From Nitrosomonas oligotropha (GTDB lineage: Bacteria > Pseudomonadota > Gammaproteobacteria > Burkholderiales > Nitrosomonadaceae), in assembly GCF_900106555.1 (NCBI RefSeq), contig NZ_FNOE01000018.1, forward strand, positions 1 to 64,000: a stretch of 64,000 nt of DNA. Direction: 5' to 3'. The notes under the pieces were generated by a model. That model made no database searches and had not been told where the DNA came from. It saw only the letters and a program-made list of their open reading frames with translations. Both the position numbers and the translations under genes were made by a program. Of this stretch, positions 5,920 to 41,307 are shown one piece after another (the first letter of the stretch is position 1; every line of letters begins with the position of its first letter).

Positions 5920-7155
5920 TCAAAAATCTTTGGCGATGCGAAAACCGAAGATGTCGTATGCATCATCGGGTTTAAATCCAAGACGGATGGTCGACCGCAG
6001 ACCCTGCGATTCATTGACACACGATCCGCCTCGCACTATCCGGCGATTACAATCGCTGCCATCTCTTTTCAGCCACACCGAGCCATCTGCTGGTGCACCA
6101 CTATAGTTATCATGCCAGCAATCCTGCACCCATTCCCACACATTCCCTGCGGTATCATACAATCCGAATGCATTCGCCTTGAACGATCCCACTGGCGCGG
6201 TTTGTTGGTTATCCCATTGACTGCCGCAGCCATCGCATACTGCATTATTTTTGCCGATATCATCGCCCCACCAATAGCGGGTTTGCGTGCCGGCACGTGC
6301 GGCGTATTCCCATTCCGCCTCCGTCGGTAGCCGGTATTGCTTACCGGTTTGCTTGGATAACCATTGCACATAGTCATGCGCATCGTGCCAGGACACATTA
6401 ATCACCGGCCGTTTGCTTCGTCCCCAGCCATGATCATCCGGCAATGTGCGCTGAGTCGCTTTGGCAAACGCATCGTATTCATCGAACGTTACCGGGTATT
6501 TGCCGATTTCAAACTCGTAACCGATGGTAACCTCATGAATCGGTCGTTCACCTGGGTAATCATCAGATCCCATCAGAAATTTTCCTGCAGGAATACGCAC
6601 CATTTCGGGTTCGAAAGGCAATCTTGCTTCTGGCAGTTTTACTTCCAGTGATTGTGCAATATCAGTAACACTAGATGACTTAGAAGTTGCATTGGCTTGC
6701 AAATCTTTTTCCAAAACGCGAATGAGTTTATTAACATCCTCATGAAATCGCCGGTCGTTGATTTCATGCGCTTGCCGCCGCGCTATCGCCGCCAAGCTTC
6801 CTGGCAGTCGTGACGAATTGGGCACATTGGCACCACCCACCAGTAGCGGGATCAAGCGGATCTTGCGTGCCAGCAAAGCTTCGATTTCCAGCCGCACCCA
6901 ATCTTCGGGATTATCCAAGCGCCGTTGCCCGTTGGCATCGGTAATATCCAGCCACTGTTTGCCGATCAACGCCACAGCAACCTGCACCGCTTTCAGTTTT
7001 TCCTGAATGACTTCGACGAAATCTTCACCCGGTTCGATCTGATCGATGTCCATGAACACATGGTCATGGCCGAAATGACCAGCCAGCCGGTCATACAACC
7101 AGCCTGCGTACCCTCCGTTATCGTCGCGGCGGTAATTGATGAAAATTTTGGCCAT
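5920..7155 (-). CDS. TIR domain protein fused to a formylglycine-generating-enzyme-like (SUMF1) domain
   Basis: The 411-residue protein begins with a TIR domain (about 1-150): MAKIFINYRRDD, FMDIDQIEPG, and DWVRLEIEALL, a WxxxE stretch like that carrying the catalytic glutamate of NAD-consuming TIRs. A linker with coiled-coil tendency leads to an FGE/sulfatase-modifying-factor domain (about 205-411): GKFLMGSDD, PVINVSWHDAHDYVQWL, LPTEAEWEYAARAG, GNVWEWVQD, RIVRGGS and IFGFRIAKDF. Such FGE folds are C-type-lectin-like and often bind ligands rather than modify sulfatases. The start at 7155 gives a clean TIR N-terminus; an upstream reading to 7245 adds an unlikely 30 residues. It stands alone. 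A role in defence or signalling is inferred from TIR fusions in general. Confidence 0.85.
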   Translation of the reverse strand: MAKIFINYRRDDNGGYAGWLYDRLAGHFGHDHVFMDIDQIEPGEDFVEVIQEKLKAVQVAVALIGKQWLDITDANGQRRLDNPEDWVRLEIEALLARKIRLIPLLVGGANVPNSSRLPGSLAAIARRQAHEINDRRFHEDVNKLIRVLEKDLQANATSKSSSVTDIAQSLEVKLPEARLPFEPEMVRIPAGKFLMGSDDYPGERPIHEVTIGYEFEIGKYPVTFDEYDAFAKATQRTLPDDHGWGRSKRPVINVSWHDAHDYVQWLSKQTGKQYRLPTEAEWEYAARAGTQTRYWWGDDIGKNNAVCDGCGSQWDNQQTAPVGSFKANAFGLYDTAGNVWEWVQDCWHDNYSGAPADGSVWLKRDGSDCNRRIVRGGSCVNESQGLRSTIRLGFKPDDAYDIFGFRIAKDF

Positions 7156-7425: not shown

Positions 7426-8595
7426 ATGAATAAAAAATCAATATCGCTACTCCGCAGCGGCTTCGTCCTCGGCTTTTGCGCCGGTCTTTTTCTGTTGAGC
7501 GGTTGCCAGTCGCTACCGACGCAACAAGTGGCTGTACCGGCGCCGGTGGTCAAGCCTTTACCTATTCCGGTCGCCAGTCACGAATTCAGTTTTGATGCTG
7601 CACGCAACGATGTCGTCGGCACCTTGCAAGTGGTCACGGCCGGTAAAGATGACACGTTGTCTGACATCGCACGGCGCTTCAATCTGGGTTACGAAGAAAT
7701 CGTCAGCGCCAATCCCGGTGTCGATCCGTGGCTGCCGAAAGCGGGCACGAAGATCATCATTCCCACGCAATTCGTGCTGCCGGATGCGCCGCGCCAAGGC
7801 ATTGTCATCAATCTTGCTGCGATGCGGCTGTTTTATTACCCCAAAACCAAGCCCGGCAAACCACAGCGGGTAATCACGCATCCGGTCGGCATCGGCCGGG
7901 TGGAATGGAAAACACCCGTGGGGATGACACGCGTCGCTTCGAAAGTCGAAAATCCGAGCTGGATTCCAACACCTTCGATCCGCCGCGAGCACGCCAAAAA
8001 TGGCGACCCGTTACCGGCCGTGGTGCCGCCCGGGCCGGATAATCCGATGGGTACGCATGTATTGAAACTCGATTGGCCGAGCTACGCCATTCACGGTACC
8101 GATAAGCCGCCCAGCATCGGCCTGCGCGGAAGCCACGGTTGCCTGCGCATGTACCCGGAAGATATTGTGTACATCTACCAGAATGTCCCCGTCGGCACGC
8201 CGGTTCGCATCGTCAATCAACCGCGCTTGCTCGGCTGGCGCGATAACAAGCTGTATCTGCAAGCGTATTCCATCTTGGAAGATGACAAACGCAATCACGC
8301 CAACCTGTTCAAGAAATCATTGACCACCGTGCGCGCGACACCGAAAGGAAAACGCGATGGGCGGCGTCAGGCCAAGATCAATCAAGCGCTGCTGGATGAA
8401 ACGATCCGCACGCCCCGCGCCACCGCCACGCCGATCACCCAGCCGCAGTTGACGCTGCAAGCCTATCTGGATCGCGCCACGCGGGTGCAGAACACCCTAC
8501 CGTTCAATGCCACTTGGGATGGCGACATGAGCAGGCAGCTTTCGGCAAACGATGTATTGGAAATGGCGAACGAGGAATCCACCCGGGTTCGATAG
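7426..8595 (+). CDS. LysM-containing L,D-transpeptidase lipoprotein (YkuD family)
   Basis: Cell-wall enzyme that forms 3-3 peptidoglycan cross-links or attaches proteins to peptidoglycan. The start at 7426 (MNKKSISLL) gives a lipoprotein signal with lipobox LLSGC; an ATG at 7408 is also in frame. A LysM domain follows at about residues 60-105 (GKDDTLSDIARRFNLGYEEI ending in IIIPT). The YkuD domain has IHGTDKPPSIGLRGSHGCLRM, with the catalytic Cys in SHGC. The last ~100 residues are a basic, low-complexity tail. It resembles the ErfK/YbiS/YnhG group. Without a lysine after the lipobox Cys (C-Q-S), outer-membrane attachment is expected. Confidence 0.92.
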   Translation: MNKKSISLLRSGFVLGFCAGLFLLSGCQSLPTQQVAVPAPVVKPLPIPVASHEFSFDAARNDVVGTLQVVTAGKDDTLSDIARRFNLGYEEIVSANPGVDPWLPKAGTKIIIPTQFVLPDAPRQGIVINLAAMRLFYYPKTKPGKPQRVITHPVGIGRVEWKTPVGMTRVASKVENPSWIPTPSIRREHAKNGDPLPAVVPPGPDNPMGTHVLKLDWPSYAIHGTDKPPSIGLRGSHGCLRMYPEDIVYIYQNVPVGTPVRIVNQPRLLGWRDNKLYLQAYSILEDDKRNHANLFKKSLTTVRATPKGKRDGRRQAKINQALLDETIRTPRATATPITQPQLTLQAYLDRATRVQNTLPFNATWDGDMSRQLSANDVLEMANEESTRVR

Positions 8596-38132: not shown

Positions 38133-39411
38133 ATGAGCGAACCCACCATTCATTGCCCCAATTGTGCAACGGAAATCAAACTCACCGAATCACTCGCCGC
38201 ACCCCTGATTCAAGCTACACGACAGGAATTCGAGGCGAAATTGGCGCAAAAAGAAGCGGATGTTTCCAAACGCGAAGCCACACTCAAAGCCCAGCAGAGA
38301 TCACTGGAAGACGCGCAGAAAACTGTTGATGAGCAAGTCGCCAGCAAGTTGAAGGCGGAACGCACACTGATTGCTACCGAAGAAGGCAAGAAAGCAAGAT
38401 TGGCGATGGCAAACGACTTAGAAGCGAAATCAAAAGAACTGGTCGAATTGCAGGAAATTCTCCAGCAGCGCAACAACAAACTGGAAGAAGCGCAAAAAGC
38501 GCAGGTCGACTTGATCCGAAAACAGCGTGAACTGGACGATGCCAAGCGGGAATTGGATTTAACCGTCGAAAAACGATTGCAGGAATCGATCGCTCTGGTT
38601 CGTCAAAAAGCAAAACAAGAAGCCGAAGACGGTCTCCGGCTCAAAGTCAGTGAAAAAGAAGAGCAAATTGCGTCAATGCAGCGGCAAATTGAGGAACTGA
38701 AGCGCAGAGCCGATCAGGGCTCGCAACAACTTCAAGGCGAAGTTCTGGAACTCGAACTGGAAACCACGCTGCGGCTCAAATTCCCGTTGGATAGTATCGA
38801 GCCTGTTGCAAAAGGCGAATTCGGCGGCGATGTGCTACAGAGAGTCATGGGGCCATTGGGACAATGGTGCGGTTCGATTTTGTGGGAATCCAAAAGAACC
38901 AAGAATTGGAGTGACGGTTGGCTGGCAAAACTTCGTGGTGATCAACGCACCGCGAAAGCGGAGATCGCTGTGCTGGTATCCAGCACGTTACCGAAGGAGA
39001 TCGAAACATTCGGCCAAATCGATGGTGTCTGGATTACCGAATCCTCGTCTGGTGCTGCCGCTTGTCATCGCTCTACGCCAATCCCTGATCGAAATCGCCA
39101 GCGCGCGGCAAATCCAGGAAGGACAGGAAACCAAAATGGAGCTAGTCTATCAGTACTTGACCGGACCAAGATTCAAACATCGCATCGAAGCCATTGTTGA
39201 GAAATTCTCCGACATGCAGGCTGACCTCGACAGAGAACGCAAAGCCATGACACGGCTATGGGCCAAGCGGGAAATGCAAATTCAGGGCGTCATTGAATCC
39301 ACAGTCGGTATGTATGGCGATCTGCAAGGCATTGCAGGACGCGCACTACCTGCCATTGAGGGATTGGAATTACCGATGCTGGATTTGAAAGACTCCGGTA
39401 ACGAGCCTTAG
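38133..39411 (+). pseudogene. DUF2130 protein, disrupted by a single-base frameshift
   Basis: The first frame (38133-39200) has an N-terminal zinc-ribbon-like CPNCATEI, a long coiled coil (about 25-200) and the DUF2130 domain ending ...FGQIDGVWIT, then changes to non-family sequence. A second frame (ending at 39411) continues the domain: NPRLVLPLVIALRQSLIEIASARQ ... DLKDSGNEP. The join is near 39039, at ATTACCGAATCC, where one extra G would explain it. Read through, the protein has about 425 residues, normal for the family. DUF2130 proteins are nuclease-like and of unsure role. It is either a true mutation or a sequencing error. Confidence 0.82.
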
Positions 39412-39526: not shown

Positions 39527-39553
39527 TAAAGAAATTTAACTAGCTTTCGTTAA
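39527..39553 (+). promoter_or_regulatory. Possible sigma-28 (flagellar) promoter
   Basis: TAAAGAAA (39527-39534) and TTCGTTAA (39546-39553) are separated by exactly 11 bases, the sigma-28 arrangement (TAAAGTTT, 11 bases, GCCGATAA). Each half matches 5 of 8 positions. The ATG of the flagellin gene lies 33 bases downstream. Weak as a match, but position and spacing are right. Confidence 0.35.
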
Positions 39554-39585: not shown

Positions 39586-41307
39586 ATGAGTTTATCGATC
39601 AATACAAATCTAGGAGCGCTGAATAGTTCGCGGTATTTATCTGCAACTACAAACGATCTCGGCCGTTCATTAGAACGGCTGTCATCGGGTATGCGGATTA
39701 ACAGTGCTAGGGATGACGCGGCGGGCCTCGCCATCCCGGACCGGATGACATCGCAAATTCGCGGCCTAAATCAGGCAACCAGAAACGCCAGTGATGGAAT
39801 CTCGATGCTACAAACCGCCGATGGTGCATTGACTTCGATGACTTCGGCATTGCAACGCATCCGTGAACTCTCCATACAAGCAGCGAATTCAACCAATAGT
39901 CTCAGTGACAAGAAAGCATTACAAGAAGAAGCGAATCAACTGATTCAGGAAATAGAGAGCGTTTCCACCACGGCTACATTTAACGGCGACAAAATATTCG
40001 ATAATTCCGGCAGTAGTGTTCTCGGCAATTCCGATCAACTGGCTGTTATGTATGGATTACAAAATGGCTGGCTGGAAGATGCGGAAAGCAAGATCCAGCA
40101 ATATTTTGGCATTTCCGCCGACGGCGCTGATATGAATATCGAGCTGACAACGTTTACCGATGGTGCGGGCGGAACTGCTGCCCGGGTGGTAGGTTCGGTA
40201 CCCGGAAGCTATACGGGTAAGGCGACTAATGTCAAATTACAGATCGATATGAGCGACTTCACGCCACCCAATTTACCCGACGGCGGCAATGCGCCATTTT
40301 ATAACGACCGGATTATTGCGCATGAAATGGTGCACGCGGTGATGTACCGGAGCATGAATATCGGTTCGATGTTTGATCCCTCCGGAGATCAAACATGGTT
40401 TATGGAAGGCTCTGCGGAATTCATTCATGGCGCCGACGAGCGTTTGCAGTCCTCGATCAGCAGTGTCGGCATCGGCGGTGTCATGGCTAAAGCAGCCACT
40501 TTCGGCTCAGCCGGCGCAGCCTGGGGAGGAACTTCGGATGATTACTCCGCAGCCTACTCCGCCGTGCGCTACTTACATCAAGTCATCAAGGATAACGGCG
40601 GCTCGGGCATCAAGGACGTCATGGTTTACTTAAACCAGAATCAAAGCGCCACACTCAGCGATGCCATCAGTGCCGCGACCGGTGGCTTATATGCCACCGC
40701 CGATGCCTTTAATGCCGACTTTGTCGCGCACGGAGCCGCATACATTGCCAGTATGAATCTGACCGATACCGACACCGGAGCAATTGGCGGTTCAAATGCC
40801 GATGGAGGCGCAATCCAAACCGCTACAAGCGTTATTTCCGATACCGCCTCAAGAGGTGGTACCAATCCGCTCGGCGGATTTAACGAAATCTGGGAAAATA
40901 TAAACGCCGCCGCGGTCGGTAATAACAAACAACTGCAGGTAGGGGCAAACAAAACCGACACCATGAATGTCACTTTCGGAGCGGTCAATACTGCCGCGAT
41001 GAGTATCCAGAGTGTGGATCTAGTTAATAATGCGGGATTTGCCACCTACATGATGGATCTTGCATTGAATCATGTTAATGAGGAAAGATCGAAAATCGGT
41101 GCACAGCTGAACCGGCTGGAATCGGTCATTACCAACAACAATACCAGTGTCGAGTCTACCGTAGCCAGCCGGTCACGCATTCAGGATGCCGACTACGCGC
41201 AAGAAACGACTATGCTGACCAAAACACAGACTATGCAGCAGGCCGCCACTGCGGTATTGGCACAAGCCAATACATCGCCGCAAATGTTGATGGCACTACT
41301 CAAGTAA
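39586..41307 (+). CDS. Flagellin with inserted zinc metalloprotease domain (flagellinolysin type)
   Basis: The 573-residue protein has an intact flagellin N-terminus (about 1-150: SINTNLGALNSSRYLSATTN, RLSSGMRINSARDDAAGLAI, SDGISMLQTADGAL) and C-terminus (about 470-573: SRIQDADYAQETTMLTKTQ, ANTSPQMLMALLK). The normal variable middle is replaced by a ~320-residue enzyme-like domain with HEMVH at 246-250 and WFMEGSAEF with Glu274, a gluzincin-type HExxH plus Glu zinc site. Proteolytic flagellins of this kind are known from several phyla and build enzymatically active filaments. No flagellar genes are next to it, so export and assembly depend on genes elsewhere. Confidence 0.9.
   Translation: MSLSINTNLGALNSSRYLSATTNDLGRSLERLSSGMRINSARDDAAGLAIPDRMTSQIRGLNQATRNASDGISMLQTADGALTSMTSALQRIRELSIQAANSTNSLSDKKALQEEANQLIQEIESVSTTATFNGDKIFDNSGSSVLGNSDQLAVMYGLQNGWLEDAESKIQQYFGISADGADMNIELTTFTDGAGGTAARVVGSVPGSYTGKATNVKLQIDMSDFTPPNLPDGGNAPFYNDRIIAHEMVHAVMYRSMNIGSMFDPSGDQTWFMEGSAEFIHGADERLQSSISSVGIGGVMAKAATFGSAGAAWGGTSDDYSAAYSAVRYLHQVIKDNGGSGIKDVMVYLNQNQSATLSDAISAATGGLYATADAFNADFVAHGAAYIASMNLTDTDTGAIGGSNADGGAIQTATSVISDTASRGGTNPLGGFNEIWENINAAAVGNNKQLQVGANKTDTMNVTFGAVNTAAMSIQSVDLVNNAGFATYMMDLALNHVNEERSKIGAQLNRLESVITNNNTSVESTVASRSRIQDADYAQETTMLTKTQTMQQAATAVLAQANTSPQMLMALLK

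Follow-up and report, generated by a model that had tools for sequence, protein, structure and literature searches.

Flagellinolysins, a family published in 2017, are flagellins with a central gluzincin metallopeptidase. Here, we analyzed a gene of this kind in Nitrosomonas oligotropha, found on a 64,000-nucleotide stretch of contig NZ_FNOE01000018.1 (the whole stretch is called the window below). The closest described systems are FliA(H) of Clostridium haemolyticum (FlaMP family; PMC5595980) and HgrFlaMP of Hylemonella gracilis (PMC7643111). In C. haemolyticum, the protease is the second flagellin, with an estimated share of at most 10%, the full-length protein is present in the filament and proteolysis by purified filaments is reported (PMC5595980). 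The same paper infers a domain insertion into a clostridial flagellin and leaves the origin of the domain open. The recombinant Hylemonella protein is proteolytic and cleaves itself, needs calcium and zinc for full activity and is blocked by ethylenediaminetetraacetic acid, and its gene is situated among non-flagellar genes (PMC7643111).

The window gene is a member of this family, and both the family and a non-flagellar gene position have been published already. It has in common with FliA(H) the flagellin ends, the central gluzincin with its HExxH motif, third-ligand Glu and basement Ala, a collagenase-like predicted fold, and a genome that also encodes an ordinary flagellin. Unlike the clostridial case, the host is an ammonia oxidiser, the gene lies outside the flagellar genes, and the flagellin ends form a clade of their own, whereas a domain insertion was inferred for FliA(H). 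HgrFlaMP is likewise betaproteobacterial, of equal architecture and apart from flagellar genes, a likeness drawn by description; activity is demonstrated for it and predicted for the Nitrosomonas protein. Of the papers searched, none names Nitrosomonas with flagellinolysin, although the species table of PMC5595980 may already do so.

We consider it probable that the product is co-assembled with the ordinary FliC filament as a low-copy proteolytic subunit, a zinc peptidase on the filament surface. The details added here are a sigma-28-like motif, a leader contrast, the co-occurrence with ordinary flagellin and two genomes with broken copies. Of greater novelty is a finding beyond the window, a homologous protease domain in tail proteins and one giant RTX protein.

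The gene is an uninterrupted open reading frame (ORF) at 39586–41307 that matches the NCBIfam equivalog NF033876 'flagellinolysin' with 437.1 bits over residues 112–504, more than twice the cut-off of 205 bits. Its features in the window are as follows.

39586..41307, + strand: flagellinolysin gene (573 amino acids), a flagellin with a central gluzincin metallopeptidase; NF033876, 437 bits
39598..40008, + strand: flagellin D0/D1 N-terminal helices, residues 5–141; PF00669
40024..40860, + strand: gluzincin peptidase domain, about residues 147–425
40321..40335, + strand: HEMVH zinc-binding and general-base motif, residues 246–250
40405..40407, + strand: Glu274, predicted third zinc ligand by motif match to Glu262 of C. 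haemolyticum FliA(H)
41050..41301, + strand: flagellin D1/D0 C-terminal helices, residues 489–572; PF00700

Both ends pass the Pfam cut-offs, Flagellin_N (PF00669) with an E of 1.6e-41 at residues 5–141 and Flagellin_C (PF00700) with 9.9e-20 at residues 489–572. The N-terminal 137 residues are 59% identical to the ordinary flagellin (FliC) of the same genome and the C-terminal 112 residues 44%, and the full-length predicted model resembles flagellins in a structure search. Thus, the ORF, both Pfam domains and NF033876 bear out the preliminary description, which had noted intact flagellin ends, HEMVH at residues 246–250 and Glu274. A variable centre devoid of a catalytic domain, as in an ordinary structural flagellin, does not fit the NF033876 score and the gluzincin-like centre model.

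The centre is predicted to adopt a collagenase-like gluzincin fold. Its model, with a mean predicted confidence (pLDDT) of 86, matches collagenase and other gluzincin peptidases, and the top solved folds are the clostridial collagenase M9 peptidase domains 4ar1, 7z5u and 4ar8 at 10–14% identity. Peptidase_M9 (PF01752) at residues 245–334 scores 22.6 bits, below the Pfam gathering cut-off of 26, and no other collagenase domain is among the Pfam matches of the protein. Searched as a single sequence, the centre matched no solved structure at E ≤ 1, and as a profile it matched 19 flagellin chains and one unrelated chain at E 0.42. The best of these flagellin chains was matched via the flagellin-like C-terminal part of the centre.

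By motif, HEMVH corresponds to His233–His237 of FliA(H), WFMEG starting at residue 271 places the third-ligand Glu at 274, and Ala277 is the predicted 'basement' residue equivalent to Ala265. His246, Glu247, His250, Glu274 and Ala277 are invariant among 43 aligned sequences, a set retrieved for the most part with the HEMVH motif itself. Likewise, its conservation in 80 named loci (the best 80 of 124) is not independent evidence, since the search patterns contained the motif. The genus search with the whole-family profile is a fairer test, and there HEMVH and WF(M/L)EG as well as all five residues are kept in 21 of 21 full-length genes, while the loops vary. Acidic residues, which could include calcium ligands, are also conserved ahead of and around HEMVH.

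The median ratio of nonsynonymous to synonymous substitution rates (dN/dS) is 0.049 for the N-terminal part, 0.049 for the centre and 0.07 for the C-terminal part. These medians are taken over the pairs with dS of 0.03–1.5, which number 32, 31 and 30 of the 210, respectively. Given the low value of the centre and the conservation in all full-length genus genes, HEMVH and WFMEG in the window gene are not chance matches. The centre could alternatively be a catalytically dead variable-region domain that merely shapes or coats the filament, and the activity of this protein is indeed a prediction. This is very unlikely, as the five residues are kept in all 21 genes and the sole copy that lost a zinc His has a broken frame as well. 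It belongs to genome G055, in which searches for ordinary flagellin and FliG found neither. Hence the gluzincin protease that the preliminary description saw in a flagellin variable region is backed by the profile, the motif conservation and the fold, and neither of the observations that it named as a refutation was made, the zinc residues being kept in the intact genes of relatives and a zinc-protease fold being predicted for the centre.

The gene co-occurs with an ordinary flagellin. Ordinary flagellin, taken as a Flagellin_C match above 60 bits outside a flagellinolysin, is in 68 of the 85 genus genomes. It is present in all 22 genomes with an unbroken flagellinolysin, and none of the 17 genomes lacking it has an unbroken one (Fisher p 0.0045, computed without kinship correction). 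In N. oligotropha, the check for other flagellins located the ordinary one on contig C41 and FliG on contig C36, both away from the window gene.

As some related genomes carry the gene, some lack it and some hold decaying copies, they make a natural experiment. Two copies are broken: that of G055 reads HEMVP and has a frame break, and that of G019 retains both motifs despite an internal deletion and a broken frame. Both sit in genomes (99% and 66% complete, respectively) where the tested flagellar genes, ordinary flagellin and FliG, were not found, FliG having been searched in 12 genomes. This suggests that the gene decays upon filament loss. Against it, G016 and G045 lost flagellinolysin yet keep ordinary flagellin and FliG. 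PMC5595980 remarks on motif conservation instead of loss by pseudogenization, whereas decayed copies do exist in Nitrosomonas (G019, G055).

Mechanistically, the terminal helices would let flagellinolysin be exported through the flagellum and pack into the filament core beside FliC, so that the central zinc peptidase would be displayed on the filament surface and cut nearby proteins. Assembly and zinc- and calcium-dependent proteolysis are put forward by analogy with the relatives. The filament that cuts proteins, as the preliminary description supposed, is thus plausible in view of the C. haemolyticum filaments (PMC5595980) and the recombinant H. gracilis protein (PMC7643111). Its use may perhaps be peptide scavenging, biofilm turnover or attack on surface proteins of neighbours. 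In a chemolithoautotroph, protein feeding is not an obvious use of a flagellum-borne protease.

Alternatively, the protein may leave via the flagellar export channel, or its centre may be freed by autolysis, and act in solution as a secreted protease. The authors of PMC7643111 suggest the same for the Hylemonella protein, which self-cleaves in recombinant form. We regard this as unlikely in Nitrosomonas: the filament-forming ends are under purifying selection about equal to that of the centre (medians 0.049 and 0.07), the unbroken genes are confined to genomes with ordinary flagellin, and the C. haemolyticum filament contains the full-length protein (PMC5595980).

Two features stand out in the region ahead of the gene.

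39527..39553, + strand: sigma-28 (FliA)-like promoter motif TAAAG-N16-CGTTAA, 32 bases ahead of the start codon
39564..39585, + strand: leader without a Shine-Dalgarno-like 4-mer

The motif, sigma-28-like by the consensus, would express flagellinolysin with the late flagellar genes. The window contains one match, while shuffled sequences contained 0.05 on average (5 of 100 shuffles with a match); the pattern was composed after the site had been seen. At identical spacing it precedes 13 of the 21 full-length genus genes, and one more with an extra base; no match is ahead of the other seven. The ordinary flagellin gene is preceded by TAAACTTT-N11-TCCGATAA, equal in overall length to the flagellinolysin site. 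A pattern covering both sites occurs six times genome-wide and not at all in the reversed control. Two of the six lie ahead of the two flagellin genes. For the other four, the ORFs taken as downstream could not be recognised as flagellar; these other sites are weak support for the promoter.

The leaders differ more sharply. Shine-Dalgarno-like 4-mers (AGGA, GGAG, GAGG or AAGG) in the last 22 nucleotides are found in none of the 21 full-length flagellinolysin genes but in all 29 ordinary flagellin genes, which represent 20 distinct leaders (30 loci, one a start-less fragment). This contrast suggests weak translation, by which flagellinolysin would be held at the level of a minor filament subunit in Nitrosomonas. 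From it we infer the low copy number.

Within the genus, matches over the cut-off of the whole-family profile are in 24 of the 85 genomes, 22 of them without a detected break. The full-length genes number 21, and the gene of G052 is split across two contigs with both motifs present in the piece read. At E ≤ 0.001, 71 of the 85 match, mostly by ordinary flagellins, and the control genomes match in 4 of 14 at this level and in 0 of 14 over the cut-off. Named carriers include Nitrosomonas marina Nm22 and Nm71, N. aestuarii Nm36 and Nitrosomonas sp. Nm51. The search across the family gave matches at E ≤ 1e-40 in 24 of 125 genomes, all from one of four genera. Among ammonia-oxidising Nitrosomonas, flagellinolysin recurs with a patchy distribution; the earlier remark that it is unusual in an ammonia-oxidiser-like genome is only partly borne out.

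In a tree of flagellin ends (87 rows), 16 genus flagellinolysins form one clade (support 100/99) and 13 ordinary genus flagellins a separate one (99/98), while a Cytobacillus flagellinolysin clusters with its own ordinary flagellins. The separation of the genus ends from ordinary flagellins fits a whole-gene acquisition in the history of the genus. In the centre tree, Spongiibacter is placed among the genus sequences at a fork without resolved order. Some loci look degraded. In Paenibacillus thermotolerans (L125:5587-7274) and an Alteromonadaceae metagenome-assembled genome (L135:582-2551), the flagellin C-terminal part is in a separate ORF and the gene looks frame-broken. G068:C79:11523-11654 (L033) is a short flagellin-like fragment interrupted by a stop codon, and its genome has no Flagellin_C or FliG match.

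A mobile-element origin of the window gene is rejected, its centre having no match in a phage collection of 50,697 records and only distant homologues in plasmids (9 records, below 60% identity). Three of the nine were opened, and three Vagococcus records were left out. On the opened plasmids, of Bacillus velezensis, Limosilactobacillus mucosae and L. reuteri, the homologous protease domain ends proteins of 692–699 amino acids. Since NF033876 scores these at 107–191 bits, below the cut-off, they are homologues and not flagellinolysins. The B. velezensis gene adjoins a phage tail tape measure gene, and its domain has no match in the phage collection, though IMG/VR had 26 loci with a homologous tail protease domain. 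BFVD gave no match at E ≤ 0.001.

L177:2768-4846, L178:1774-3873, L179:1726-3822 and L180-L205: tail proteins with a C-terminal flagellinolysin-like gluzincin domain (phrog_1887/DUF5048)

All 16 tail-type ORFs scanned match phrog_1887 'tail protein'. HExxH is in 29 of 29 and WxxEGxAE in 28 of 29, partly by selection as the IMG/VR search patterns contained the motifs, and profiles of the flagellin ends, made from the genus genes, match none of the 29. The tail protease domain aligns to the flagellinolysin centre with an hhalign probability of 100 (E 1.4e-50, 261 columns), and the centre tree groups the 25 distinct phage-type sequences in a single clade (100/99). The protease domain is homologous but fused to a tail protein, without flagellin ends and in a separate clade. 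From the tail genes, the Bacillus and Limosilactobacillus plasmids would be phage-plasmids, and the tail-protein phages and phage-plasmids apparently belong to Gram-positive bacteria. The L. reuteri tail protein is annotated 'flagellin', and Pfam finds no flagellin domain in it.

The domain is also carried by a Cellvibrio sp. UBA7671 ORF (L143:1146-12530) of more than 3,700 amino acids with RTX and immunoglobulin-like (Ig) repeats, 40% identical over 281 residues. It lacks flagellin ends and exceeds the NF033876 cut-off with 221 bits. The phage-tail relatives are informative on where the domain came from, and they point to a broader class of surface-displayed gluzincins. We tentatively raise a possibility, itself rather doubtful, that the protease did not arise as an invention of flagellins but is a mobile module for surface display, borne by tail proteins and a giant RTX protein, with the flagellin version maybe captured from a tail or the reverse. 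In Nitrosomonas it would be deployed as a minor subunit through a flagellar promoter and a leader that lacks a Shine-Dalgarno sequence. The centre tree is midpoint-rooted with a long-branch warning and does not resolve the direction of transfer between phage tail and flagellin. Literature searches found nothing for DUF5048 with phage, and for flagellinolysin with tail only a match concerning E. coli and Salmonella flagella.

Around the window gene, no flagellar Pfam match is among 16 nearby ORFs scanned (two being halves of one gene). The gene does stand apart from flagellar clusters, as first noted, although calling this unusual finds no support in view of the Hylemonella gene (PMC7643111). 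In the clade of the window, it is followed by a multicopper oxidase gene, and a DUF2130 gene, a chromate transporter and a putative aminopeptidase (PF10023) lie upstream. Its neighbours are different in the marina/aestuarii group and in some other cases. The oxidase is present in 66 of the 85 genomes, and 30 of its loci were fetched with 1.5 kb on each side. Flagellinolysin is directly upstream in 11, downstream in 2, a remnant in 1 (G016) and absent in 15, the G015 locus being uninformative because its contig begins there. At 4 of the 15 gene-less loci, less than about 160 bases separate the end of the aminopeptidase gene from the oxidase; at a fifth, the distance is about 800 bases. The G016 remnant (L054 around 8113-8364) and a 49-residue fragment in G045 (L055 around 6222-6344) both adjoin the oxidase gene. 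Given the different neighbours, the remnants and the empty oxidase sites, the gene has been retained, lost and relocated within the genus.

The patchy presence (24 of 85) and the non-flagellar neighbours could also mean a recently arrived foreign gene with no established use. This is highly improbable, as the ends of 16 genus sequences form one clade apart from the 13 ordinary flagellins (100/99), the clade of the window shares its synteny, G016 and G045 still carrying remnants at that site, and dN/dS is 0.049. As a separate observation, the DUF2130 gene in the window (38133-39411) is broken into two overlapping frames; its parts share one frame in L034, L036, L038, L039 and L042, and only a short end was matched in L035.
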